From positions 1-5,505 of the forward strand of contig JAUUYD010000184.1 of NCBI GenBank assembly GCA_030590585.1: a stretch of DNA of 5,505 bases, in the 5' to 3' direction. Shown one piece after another: positions 2,193-5,505 of the stretch; positions within the stretch are counted from its first letter, which is position 1; every line of letters begins with the position of its first letter. The stretch comes from Spirochaeta sp. GTDB lineage: Bacteria > Spirochaetota > Spirochaetia > Spirochaetales_E > Spirochaetaceae_B. A program made the translations under genes and the position numbers. The notes under the pieces are model-generated. The model saw only the letters and a list, made by a program, of their open reading frames with translations. It ran no database searches and was not told the DNA's origin.

Positions 2193-4277
2193 TTGGATAA
2201 GAAACGATATCTGGAACAGGTATACGGCGGGCTTCTGGGCAAGTGTGTTGGAGTCCGCCTGGGCGCACCGGTGGAACCGACGATATGGACATACAAGCGT
2301 ATCAGAGATACTTATGGTGAAATCACAGATTATGTGAAGAATTATAAGAATTTCGCCGCCGATGATGACGTGAACGGACCGTTGTTTTTTATCCGTGCTC
2401 TTATGGATTATGAGGGACCGATAACGGAAAAAGAGATCGGGCGGACCTGGTTGAACTACACTCGGGAAGGCATCGGTTTCTATTGGTGGGGCGGTTACGG
2501 TCGAAGCACGGAACACACCGCCTACCTGAACTTGAAATCCGGTATGGATGCCCCGGCCTCAGGCAGTGCCGAGGTGAACGGTTATTCCATCGCGGAGCAG
2601 ATAGGCGGACAGATTTTCATCGATTCCTGGGGTTGGGTATTTCCGGATAATCCGGAGAAAGCCGCTCATTATGCCGGGATGGCCGCCAGCGTCAGTCACG
2701 ACCAAAACGGCATTTATGGCGGAATCTTCATTGCCGTATGTATCTCCCTGGCTTTTACTCACCGGGAAATTCCTCTCATTATTGATGAAGCGCTGAAGTG
2801 GATTCCAGAAGATTCCGAATATACCCGGGTGGTTACCGGGGTCCGTGATTTTCATCGGAAACATCCCGAAGACTGGCGGCTCTGCAGGGATTTTCTGGAA
2901 AGCGATTTCGGTTACGATCGCTATCCCGGTGTTTGCCATATGATACCGAATGCCGGTGTATGTGCCCTTGCCCTGTATTACGGTGTGGGGGATTTTGCCC
3001 GGACTATTGAGATTGCCACAATGTGCGGTTGGGACACAGACTGCAACGCCGGGAACGTCGGTGCTATTCTTGGGGTTATGAACGGTCCGGAAGAAATTCC
3101 GCTGAGGTATCGCCGGCCCATAAATGATTTTCATGCAGCCAGCAGTATTTCCGGAGCCTTGAATATCATCGATTTACCTACAGCGGCCAGGGAGATGGCG
3201 ATTCTTGGACTTGAGCAAATATCTGAATCCGTTCCGGATGAATGGAGAAATGGTGCGTTTTCCGACGATCTATATTTTGATTTCTCCCTGCCTGGTGCAA
3301 CATCCGGATTGCGAACTTCATCTGATTACCTTGCCCCTATAGGGGTGGGAGAGGATTTTCAGAAACAAGGATGTGTTTCGATTCTGTTGGATCGGCTGGT
3401 ACGGGGGGATACAGCCCGAATCTTCTATAAACCCTATTACCGGCAGGCTGATTTTGACGACCAGCGATATTCTCCGACTTTCACAGCTCTGGTATACCCG
3501 GGGCAAACTCTGCGGATAAAAGCGGAAGTGGAAAAAATGAGCGGTCAGAGGATAGCAGTTGCTCCCTATGTCAGAGACAGTGAAAGCAAGGAAATTTTTA
3601 ACGGTGCTTATATTTTCCCCGAGCCCGGGACTGAATTTGAACTTACATGGACAATACCTCAAGTTCCATTTGCCGTCGATGAAGCAGGGCTGCTGATTAC
3701 CAATTTTGACAGCGAGAAATATCTTGGGCATTTATATTTCCATGAGTTTGAAGTTACAGGAAAAAAGGAATTCTCCATCGAATTCGAGTTTGAAAAAAAG
3801 GAGTTCGGAGGATTAAGCCGCTGTTCCTGTGTAGGAGGATTCTGGGAGTTAGAGCAGAAAAGCCTGCATGTACTGACTCAGGATGGTTTTTATCTTTGTT
3901 CCGGTTCTTATTACCAGAAAGACTGCCTGGTAAAGGCTCTACTGGTTCCGGAATATGGAGACAGCCATCTCATTATGATTCGTTCCGGAGGAATGGAAAC
4001 CGGTTACTTCTTCGGTCTGTCAGGAGAAAACATGGTGAAACTCTATAAGAAAGACCATGATTTGAAGCTGTTGGCAGAGATTGAATATCCCTGGGAAATG
4101 GGTAAAGAATACTGCCTTTCAGCTGAAGTACGAGGAGGTGTAATGCTCTGTTCTATCAATGATGTTGAAGTACTGAGTTATACAGATGAGACCCCCCTGA
4201 TTTCCGGCATGGCAGGTTTAGCCAAGTTGGATGGAGGACGAACCCGTTTTCTCTCACTGAACTGCAGGGAACTTTAG
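2193..4277 (+). CDS. ADP-ribosylglycohydrolase-family protein with a two-module beta-rich C-terminal extension
   Basis: From the TTG start this is a 694-residue protein with no signal peptide or membrane segment, so it is probably cytoplasmic. Residues 6-345 match the ADP-ribosylglycohydrolase (DraG/ARH) fold: GGLLGKCVGVRLGAPVE at 12-28, the metal-site acidic motif ADDD at 56-59, VSHDQNGIYGG at 167-177, and the second metal motif GWDTDCNAGNVGAILG at 279-294 with Asp281 and Asp283. Known members remove ADP-ribose from proteins or hydrolyse related glycosidic bonds with a dinuclear Mg2+ site. Many bacterial homologues near sugar genes have no defined substrate. The second motif has Trp280 in place of the usual second glycine of GGDTD. 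Residues about 360-525 and 526-694 are beta-strand-rich; the last resembles a LamG/concanavalin-like sandwich (GYFFGLSG, then alternating strands). This makes the protein about twice the length of simple DraG proteins. The stop is only 5 bp before citD, so it is in the same operon. The family call is firm; the substrate is unknown. Confidence 0.88.
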   Translation: MDKKRYLEQVYGGLLGKCVGVRLGAPVEPTIWTYKRIRDTYGEITDYVKNYKNFAADDDVNGPLFFIRALMDYEGPITEKEIGRTWLNYTREGIGFYWWGGYGRSTEHTAYLNLKSGMDAPASGSAEVNGYSIAEQIGGQIFIDSWGWVFPDNPEKAAHYAGMAASVSHDQNGIYGGIFIAVCISLAFTHREIPLIIDEALKWIPEDSEYTRVVTGVRDFHRKHPEDWRLCRDFLESDFGYDRYPGVCHMIPNAGVCALALYYGVGDFARTIEIATMCGWDTDCNAGNVGAILGVMNGPEEIPLRYRRPINDFHAASSISGALNIIDLPTAAREMAILGLEQISESVPDEWRNGAFSDDLYFDFSLPGATSGLRTSSDYLAPIGVGEDFQKQGCVSILLDRLVRGDTARIFYKPYYRQADFDDQRYSPTFTALVYPGQTLRIKAEVEKMSGQRIAVAPYVRDSESKEIFNGAYIFPEPGTEFELTWTIPQVPFAVDEAGLLITNFDSEKYLGHLYFHEFEVTGKKEFSIEFEFEKKEFGGLSRCSCVGGFWELEQKSLHVLTQDGFYLCSGSYYQKDCLVKALLVPEYGDSHLIMIRSGGMETGYFFGLSGENMVKLYKKDHDLKLLAEIEYPWEMGKEYCLSAEVRGGVMLCSINDVEVLSYTDETPLISGMAGLAKLDGGRTRFLSLNCREL

Positions 4278-4282
4278 AATAA

Positions 4283-4549
4283 GTGGAACATACCGCGGGG
4301 TATTTAACCAAACAGGATGTGCTTGTACGGATAATTGATGAGCCTGGTCCGTTGAGTGTAGAGATCAGTTCTTCGGTTTCGGGGCTTTACGGCCGTGCTC
4401 TTAATCTGGCCGCCGAGGAGGAACTTTCCAGGTTGAAAGTAACTAAGGGCCTGGTTCATATCGAGGATAATCAAGCTCTGGATTTTGTCCTTCGTGCCAG
4501 GGTTCGTTCAGCTGTTACAGCATTGAGAGAAGCGGGATCTGACATATGA
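4283..4549 (+). CDS. citD: CitD-like acyl carrier subunit of a citrate-lyase-type complex, lacking the expected serine
   Basis: This 88-residue protein has the CitD length and pattern: AGYLTKQDVLVRI at 5-17 matches the N-terminal AGTLES-x-DV-x-x-RI motif, EISSSV matches the INSSV block, and ALDFVLRARV near 65-74 matches the conserved ALDCILRAR block. In citrate lyase the gamma subunit CitD carries 2'-(5''-phosphoribosyl)-3'-dephospho-CoA on a serine (Ser14 in E. coli) and shuttles acyl groups between CitF and CitE. Here the aligned residue is Lys10, with Thr9 before and Gln11 after, so the usual attachment site is missing. The start is GTG, the first codon after an in-frame TAA; a weak AGGGA lies 12 nt upstream. 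A later GTG start (4319) would lose the conserved N-terminal motif. The gene begins 5 bp after the glycohydrolase stop and overlaps citE by 4 bp. Family identity is clear from sequence and context; normal carrier function is doubtful. Confidence 0.87.
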   Translation: MEHTAGYLTKQDVLVRIIDEPGPLSVEISSSVSGLYGRALNLAAEEELSRLKVTKGLVHIEDNQALDFVLRARVRSAVTALREAGSDI

Positions 4550-5418
4550 GAAGCTATCTATACTGTCCCGGAAATAACCCGAAAATGATTATCAATGCCG
4601 GTCTGTATGGAGCTGATGGTCTGGTCTTCGACCTGGAGGATGCAGTAGCCCCGGACAGGAAGCAGGAAGCACGATTATTACTGGCCCAGGCCTTTATGGA
4701 ACAGATTGTACCTGTTGGAATATCAGCTGTTCGTATCAATGGTCCGGACACTGATGACTGGATGAAGGATCTGGAAGAAATGATTCCCGCTGGAGCTCGA
4801 ATTGTACGAATTCCCAAAGTGGAACATCCGGATCAAATTCGTAAAATTTGCGATCTGATAGGTATAATTGAAGAAAAAAACGGCATCGCTTCTGGTGATG
4901 TTGTGCTTCAATGCATTCTGGAGACACCGTCAGGTGTGGAAAATGCATTTATAATAGGCAACAGCTCACCGCGAATCCGCTCGTATTCATTCGGCGCTGA
5001 AGATTACTGCACCTCTGTCGGGATACAAAGGGGCCCGGATTTATTTTCTCTTGATTATCCGCGCAGCCGTATAGCCTCTGCAGCAGCCGCTTTCGGATAT
5101 AGTGCAATTGATACGGTCTGGGGTTTTCTTGATGATGAAGCCGGACTTGAAGCTGATACTCTCAGGGCAAAGAGCTTTGGATTTAATGGAAAATCATGTA
5201 TCCATCCGGATCAGATTGATCTTGTTAACAAACTGTTCACTCATAGTCCTGAAGAAGTAACCGCTGCCCGTCAAATACTTGAGAAGGCATCTACTATGAG
5301 TAGTGGTGCCACCGCTGATCGAGGCCGTATGATTGACCGGCCGGTGATTCTCCGAGCTGAGAAAATTCTACGTTCGGCCGAAGAATACGGGATTCGGAAA
5401 CAGACAGATGCAGAATGA
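4546..5418 (+). CDS. citE: CitE-type citrate lyase beta subunit (HpcH/HpaI aldolase family)
   Basis: This 290-residue cytoplasmic lyase subunit has normal CitE length. In citrate lyase it splits citryl-ACP into oxaloacetate and acetyl-ACP in a Mg2+-dependent retro-aldol-type step. Motifs in order: RSYLYCPGN at 2-10, FDLEDAV at 28-34, substrate-binding Arg63 in VRING, metal-ligand Glu126 in LETPSG, metal-ligand Asp153 in GAEDY, GFNGKSCIHP at 212-221, and the CitE-type tail from RMIDRPVI to AEEYGI at 261-283. The tail and the neighbours favour a complex-bound CitE over the free-standing CoA-dependent CitE-like lyases. All expected catalytic residues are present. The E. coli CitE region after GAEDY reads RNLRTERSPEG, whereas here it is CTSVGIQRGPD, so substrate preference may differ (a citramalate-type acid is one alternative). 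The ATG overlaps the citD stop as ATGA, indicating translational coupling. Confidence 0.93.
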   Translation: MRSYLYCPGNNPKMIINAGLYGADGLVFDLEDAVAPDRKQEARLLLAQAFMEQIVPVGISAVRINGPDTDDWMKDLEEMIPAGARIVRIPKVEHPDQIRKICDLIGIIEEKNGIASGDVVLQCILETPSGVENAFIIGNSSPRIRSYSFGAEDYCTSVGIQRGPDLFSLDYPRSRIASAAAAFGYSAIDTVWGFLDDEAGLEADTLRAKSFGFNGKSCIHPDQIDLVNKLFTHSPEEVTAARQILEKASTMSSGATADRGRMIDRPVILRAEKILRSAEEYGIRKQTDAE

Positions 5419-5505
5419 CGCTGGAAGAGAAATCCCGGATTCTATTGAAGGACTGGGCTCTGTTCGGCCGTACAGAATCCTTATCGAGACAGGATCAGTT
5501 CAGAA
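5408..5505 (+). CDS. citF: CitF, citrate lyase alpha subunit (acyl-ACP transferase), N-terminus only, cut by the right edge
   Basis: Only 32 codons are visible, out of a family length near 500. The translation from ATG 5408 contains GREIPDSIEGLGSVRPYR (residues 6-23), which resembles the N-terminal block of CitF proteins, for example NREIPEYI followed by KPFAG in lactic acid bacteria as I recall it. CitF exchanges the acetyl group on the carrier for citrate, making citryl-ACP and acetate. The gene overlaps citE by 11 bp; a GGA lies 9 nt before the start. The D-E-F order is the standard one and supports the call. A competing ATG at 5415 in another frame also stays open to the edge but gives a sequence unlike CitF. 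The catalytic regions lie outside the window. Confidence 0.75.
   Translation, partial: MQNDAGREIPDSIEGLGSVRPYRILIETGSVQ

Follow-up and report, generated by a model that had tools for sequence, protein, structure and literature searches.

The ATP-independent citrate lyase, which splits citrate into oxaloacetate and acetate, is formed by the subunits CitD, CitE and CitF and goes together with the enzymes CitC, CitX and CitG; its carrier, CitD, bears a phosphoribosyl-dephospho-CoA arm on a serine residue (Ser14 in E. coli). In malonate decarboxylase (MdcACDE) the carrier MdcC holds a prosthetic group at Ser25, and MdcD-MdcE takes free malonyl-CoA as substrate, according to an excerpt of PMC5534430. 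Stand-alone CitE-like enzymes (malyl-CoA lyase, CLYBL) have neither a CitD nor a CitF partner. In the available part of PMC3832036, the characterised members use free acyl-CoA, and malyl-CoA lyases hold the CoA phosphates by Arg, Lys or His. The pair of citryl-CoA synthetase and citryl-CoA lyase (split ATP-citrate lyase) needs ATP. A literature search that had few subscription papers within reach turned up no report of a CitD lacking the serine.

We analyzed a 5,505-nt stretch of a Spirochaeta sp. genome (GCA_030590585.1, contig JAUUYD010000184.1, forward strand; hereafter the window). Its locus resembles citrate lyase in having three subunits in the same gene order, with CitD in PF06857, CitE in PF03328 and the CitF of relatives above the TIGR01584 cut-off. 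It differs from citrate lyase in that the prosthetic serine is absent, that relatives with only this system are without CitX, CitG and full-length CitC, and that the window's CitD and CitE fall below curated cut-offs. Because the carrier lacks its defining feature and both proteins score below these cut-offs, we class the system as a variant of citrate lyase rather than as a full member.

The other systems share single features with the locus. MdcC has its Ser25 where Lys10 of the window's CitD sits, but MdcC carries a prosthetic group, and here MdcD and MdcE are not seen and the neighbors are CitE and CitF; the window's CitD did not match TIGR03130 (MdcC) at E 0.01. The stand-alone enzymes belong to the lyase family of the window's CitE. 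Citryl-CoA synthetase and lyase occupy the same operon slot in other spirochaetes, but they are unrelated proteins, and CitDEF would need no ATP.

Results

Lysine occupies the prosthetic-group serine column of the window's CitD

All genes of the window lie on the forward strand. An ABC transporter permease (3–635; PF00528, 31.8 bits vs. a cut-off of 26.4), whose start is outside the window or near its edge, is followed by the extracellular solute-binding protein of an ABC transporter (693–2102; PF01547, E 8.9e-22) and by DraG1, a protein of ∼694 residues of the ADP-ribosylglycohydrolase family (2193–4277; PF03747, E 4.3e-56), which adjoins citD in relatives. The TTG start of DraG1 at 2193 was chosen by comparison with relatives, the longest frame beginning at 2136; its C-terminal half (about residues 304–693) had no Pfam match. 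Next come the 88-residue CitD homologue (4283–4549; PF06857) and, overlapping it by 4 bases, the CitE homologue, a C-C lyase subunit (4546–5418; PF03328, E 5.1e-46). The first 30 codons of the last gene (5415–5505) had no Pfam match and are too short for family assignment; the gene is called a CitF homologue from its position and from relatives, with CitF at this place in L001, L002, L003 and L005. A CitE query retrieved 15 loci, and the nearest five (49–71% identical) are from spirochaete draft genomes.

Codon 10 of citD (4310–4312) is AAA, which places lysine at the column of Ser14 of E. coli CitD and Ser25 of MdcC. The protein has the PF06857 sequence family and fold, and the phosphoribosyl-dephospho-CoA serine is absent from it. 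The sequence-only reading had claimed that the serine is truly replaced and that one base error cannot account for the lysine. Both claims held, and sequencing error was rejected as the source. An alignment with CitD homologues of the same neighborhood gave Lys or Arg in 14/14 DraG1-linked CitDs and Ser in none. Twelve of them have Lys (the window, G002–G005, G407, G399, G414, G419, G426, G367 and G463) and two have Arg (G474 and G250).

With the curated model TIGR01608 (cut-off 63.5 bits), the window's CitD scored 41.8 bits, Ser-type CitDs 115.1 (L073) and 105.3 (L076), and a Lys-type CitD from other hosts, P0083, 74.5. Residue counts were taken from a set of 177 CitD rows, in which 7 locus rows duplicate protein rows. 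The residue before the prosthetic-serine column is Glu in 78/86 Ser-type rows vs. 29/83 Lys/Arg-type rows, and the Asp two residues past the column is invariant in both types.

Lys- and Arg-type CitD beyond the window

DraG1 matches were found in 50 of 394 genomes. Thirty matches were fetched, and CitD was present in 11 of them, nine with Lys and two with Arg. The CitD of G416 also has Lys, on a contig that starts at citD. Two profile searches yielded 137 proteins with K (64), S (60), R (6), N (3) or T (1) at the column, or with the residue missing (3), counts that are biased and do not give frequencies because the searches were seeded with Lys-type sequences. Four CitD relatives, P0080, P0096, P0111 and P0050, account for the Asn (three) and Thr (one).

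Many Lys types lie outside the clade of the window, including a group marked by the motif AGSENKSDVLV as well as P0117, whose source label is uncultured Oscillibacter. A search of plasmid records with P0083 gave 76 matches of <60% identity. In a sample of the spirochaete phylum as a whole, 43 of 392 genomes had a CitD match, and the 30 loci fetched comprised 26 Ser, 3 Lys and 1 Ala; in Pseudomonadota all nine CitD matches, from 8 of 398 genomes, had Ser. Lysine at the serine column is thus not universal in CitD.

An in-frame TAG in some CitD matches was considered as a recoded codon and rejected, since it is an ordinary stop at the gene end in the frames read. Natural CitD-CitE fusions in one reading frame occur in DraG1 operons for both the Lys type (L080:6946–8166) and the Arg type (L140:10468–11682).

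Genomes with only Lys-type CitD show no CitX, CitG or full-length CitC

CitX, CitG and CitC were searched in 33 spirochaete genomes, mostly drafts, with three genomes of other phyla added for CitC. In the nine Lys-only genomes (G001–G005, G414, G416, G419 and G104), CitX, CitG and full-length CitC were each found in 0/9; in G001 citD falls in a contig gap, with DraG1 and CitE at two contig ends. In Ser-only genomes CitX was found in 15/16, CitG in 15/16 and CitC in 16/16, with all three in 15/16. The exception, G403, is without CitX and CitG, and its contig ends inside citF. Because many genomes are drafts, single absences mean little and it is the overall pattern that counts. For CitX, 0/9 Lys-only vs. 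18/19 Ser-bearing genomes (G426 and four Brachyspira-like genomes excluded) gives p 1.4e-6, a value that overstates the evidence because the compared genomes are related and kinship was not corrected for. Frames of 160–173 residues in G002, G003, G004 and G419 matched CitC weakly, above the family cut-off; they are probably a related phosphopantetheine adenylyltransferase, a kinship with CitC that we presume.

Among relatives, a Lys-type CitD either is the only one found or stands apart from a Ser-type citD. G399, G407 and G367 have both CitD types, the second with Ser, and all three enzymes are present. There the Ser-type genes are flanked by citC, citG and citX (G399), citC and citG (G407) or citG and citX (G367), and no citC, citG or citX was seen beside the Lys-type operon. 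G426, with a Lys-type CitD, carries CitX and CitG in a second cluster that is truncated by a contig end; a strong CitC match was not found in this genome. We considered this case as a contradiction and rejected it, since the cluster occupies a different contig, next to TctABC-like genes and a terminal CitF fragment; we infer that it has a Ser-type citD.

A separate citDEF group has a CitD without the AGxLE motif, reading KKISDDAIIE in most members (L085:1418–4107, L086:6878–9624, L087:7286–10027, L097:1218–3968 and L098:6007–8754). In the Brachyspira-like genomes G048, G156, G083 and G283, whose CitD has a KKISDDAIIE-like motif with Ser or Ala at or near the serine column, neither CitX nor CitG was found, so that loss of the maturation enzymes alone does not demand Lys. 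This group is possibly another prosthetic-group-free form, one that kept a serine.

The absence of the known enzymes leaves room for unknown ones, and the usual prosthetic group might be attached to another CitD residue by enzymes unrelated to CitX and CitG. The Lys/Arg type has no newly invariant Ser, Thr, Tyr or Cys in 83 rows, and we regard such a displaced attachment as very improbable. Thr9, offered by the sequence-only reading as a cofactor site, fares no better: its column is Thr in only 5/83 Lys/Arg-type rows.

The exchange to a basic residue is recurrent

A tree of 177 CitDs, built with the serine column left out, has few columns and many weak forks. It implies at least six changes between Ser and Lys/Arg; the well-supported branches alone force three for Ser. 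The six Arg rows, among the 83 of the Lys/Arg type, are six separate changes, five of them forced. In quick CitE and CitF trees, with SH-aLRT support only, the DraG-linked Lys rows except L080 form one group (support 99 and 100, respectively), and Lys-type L082 falls within the CitX-less group (97 and 99). The Lys-type fusion L080 lies among the Ser type in the CitF tree (95) and on a long branch outside the main Lys group in the CitE tree.

Recurrent Lys/Arg exchange speaks against a covalently modified lysine and fits a charge. Lysine is the usual attachment residue of lipoate and biotin, and another covalent cofactor of this kind could be joined to Lys10 by an amide. Arg, however, stands at this position after six separate changes and also in G474 and G250, and in 5 of the 6 Arg rows no Lys is adjacent. 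There is thus only a slim chance that Lys10 carries such a cofactor, and the modification of lysine by a different chemistry, proposed from the sequence, is disfavored.

CitE and CitF retain invariant positions

The window's CitE scored 214.7 bits against TIGR01588, below the cut-off of 443.4, and Ser-type L076 scored 463.3. The CitF of relatives L001, L002 and L072 reached 510–526 bits, above the TIGR01584 cut-off of 501; the window holds only 30 codons of this gene. Across the Lys, Ser and CitX-less types, 24 CitE and 54 CitF positions are invariant. A weak PF13336 match was seen in Lys-type CitF.

The operon might instead be decaying, with a CitD that has lost its role. CitD changes fast, that of L002 scoring only 16.1 bits, below the PF06857 cut-off, and DraG1 is broken in G419. 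Against this stand the invariant positions of CitE and CitF, the gene order kept in divergent genomes, and Gly6, Asp12 and Arg73 of CitD, conserved in 83/83 Lys/Arg-type rows. Decay is accordingly hard to credit, and the earlier impression of an intact operon is borne out by the invariant positions and the conserved gene order.

By its best PDB matches, the window's CitE falls in the family of the stand-alone CitE-like lyases (malyl-CoA lyase, CLYBL), and best PDB matches did not separate Lys-type from Ser-type CitE. Nor did the CitE and CitF sequences show any mark by which free-CoA use could be told from carrier-bound use. At CitE position 159, Gly stands in 12/12 Lys-type and 6/6 CitX-less-clade rows, and Lys in 12/14 Ser-type rows. 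This position was considered as a free-CoA switch and dropped, since lyases of known structure vary there: by our reading, 4l9y, 5vxc and 1sgj have Gly and 5ugr has Arg.

In the model, Lys10 is exposed at the position of the MdcC prosthetic serine

The predicted structure of the window's CitD is a confident model, and its best structural match is MdcC. The aligned ranges set Lys10 on the prosthetic Ser25. By Foldseek alone, MdcC came fifth, after four ribosomal chains, and sequence searches of the PDB with two CitD profiles gave no relative. In the model Lys10 is exposed in the loop between strands 2–5 and 12–23. A structure of a CitDEF complex was searched for, and none was found. In the excerpt of PMC5534430, the ribose 2′-hydroxyl of CoA modeled in the MdcA site lies ∼10 Å from MdcC Ser25, and the 3′-phosphate of CoA bound in the MdcD-MdcE site is exposed. 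By analogy, a long basic side chain at the Ser25-equivalent point could reach a CoA phosphate.

The complex may use free CoA with a Lys/Arg that is purely structural, forming a salt bridge to CitE, to CitF or within the loop, and with CitD as a scaffold that does not touch CoA. A scaffold role would be enough to retain CitD, and the basic residue is exposed in the model loop. A generic scaffold contact, however, predicts neither that the change to Lys/Arg falls exactly at the former attachment point nor that it occurs more than once. We consider a purely structural residue unlikely, although less so than a displaced prosthetic group, another covalent cofactor or decay.

Citryl-CoA modules take the place of citDEF in some DraG operons

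The common order of the operon is a LacI regulator, DraG2 (a second ADP-ribosylglycohydrolase), two permeases, a binding protein, DraG1, citD, citE and citF. In L131 (G507) and L134 (G513), three genes other than citDEF follow DraG1; they encode an ATP-grasp protein that matches a citrate-binding domain, a CoA-ligase alpha-type protein (identified by a scan of L131 alone) and a short protein resembling citrate synthase. In L132 (G501), the same kind of three-gene set lies behind a gene of the nitrilase family.

The citrate-synthase-like protein of L131 scored 243.5 bits with the citryl-CoA lyase model, above the cut-off of 212, and among PDB entries it matched citryl-CoA lyase 6hxp best (E 2.4e-53). 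The ATP-grasp protein matched succinyl-CoA synthetase 3ufx (E 4.5e-52) before citryl-CoA synthetase 6hxq (E 6e-38), so that the latter name is putative. L138 (G381) and L139 (G310) have acetate-CoA-ligase-like proteins and a citryl-CoA-lyase-like protein (above the cut-off in L139, below it in L138) between DraG2 and the permeases. DraG1 is also found where no citrate module is visible, as across the 19 kb of L141.

Judged by these gene contents, the DraG operon seems to carry one of several routes for activating and splitting a citrate-like acid. Because a citryl-CoA module sits in the citDEF slot of three genomes, it probably performs the same step. The operon alternatives to Lys-type CitDEF are enzymes of free CoA. 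Among the options that the sequence-only reading had listed, the use of free CoA is the best supported, by the absence of CitX and CitG from the Lys-only genomes and by the citryl-CoA modules found in the same operon elsewhere.

Four further arrangements were observed. The G419 copy of DraG1 (L078:9994–12128) is broken into several frames with stops, through real decay or draft errors, and the adjoining citD, citE and citF are open. In L132, the nitrilase-family gene (PF00795, 5682–6506) separates DraG1 from the citryl-CoA-synthetase-like genes. In a Lys-type cluster that has no DraG, citF is followed by a PF00698 acyl transferase domain gene (L082:12709–13608), which recalls MdcH, the enzyme that uses malonyl-CoA to load the carrier of malonate decarboxylase. 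In L137:3620–10088, a DraG1 relative is found with a glycoside hydrolase of family 4, an oxidoreductase of the MocA type and a zinc dehydrogenase; this cluster may hint at a sugar-like substrate.

Discussion

We think it probable that Lys-type CitDEF is a citrate-lyase-type complex that has no covalent prosthetic group and acts on free thioesters of CoA, the Lys/Arg being probably in contact with one of the CoA phosphates. The conserved basic residue, the absence of the prosthetic-group enzymes in relatives and the free-CoA modules of the operon are read from sequence, the co-occurrence and operon evidence coming from spirochaete genomes; from them we infer the use of free CoA, the phosphate contact and the substrate.

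In the proposed mechanism, the phosphoribosyl-dephospho-CoA arm would have been lost from the CitD/CitE/CitF complex. CitF would transfer CoA between an acyl-CoA and an acid resembling citrate, and the CoA thioester so formed would be cleaved by CitE; the two subunits would work with freely diffusing CoA. CitD would be retained as a small docking subunit, whose Lys/Arg stands at the loop tip, the site of the serine-phosphate bond. There it would most likely bind a phosphate of CoA through a salt bridge, the 3′-phosphate being the natural candidate, so that an electrostatic hold would take the place of the covalent tether. The substrate would be citrate or a relative, perhaps freed from an imported compound by the enzymes of the ADP-ribosylglycohydrolase family.

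It is an evenly balanced question whether these CitDs represent a widespread and unrecognized class of citrate lyases, in which the arm was given up, serine was exchanged for Lys/Arg more than once and the carrier was kept as an electrostatic dock for free CoA, turning a tethered enzyme back into a free-cofactor enzyme.

One modified serine defines CitD and MdcC, yet in databases the name citrate lyase acyl carrier protein is given on sequence similarity alone; P0083, for example, which is of the Lys type, lies above the curated cut-off. The natural and recurrent replacement by Lys/Arg, together with the missing CitX, CitG and CitC, would illustrate how a carrier can lose its tether, and would mean that there is an enzyme of the citrate-lyase type that does without maturation genes. 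What the prosthetic arm does becomes testable by single substitutions. For the spirochaetes, the gene content points to an uncharacterized pathway that may link enzymes of the ADP-ribosylglycohydrolase family and an ABC importer with the splitting of an acid like citrate.
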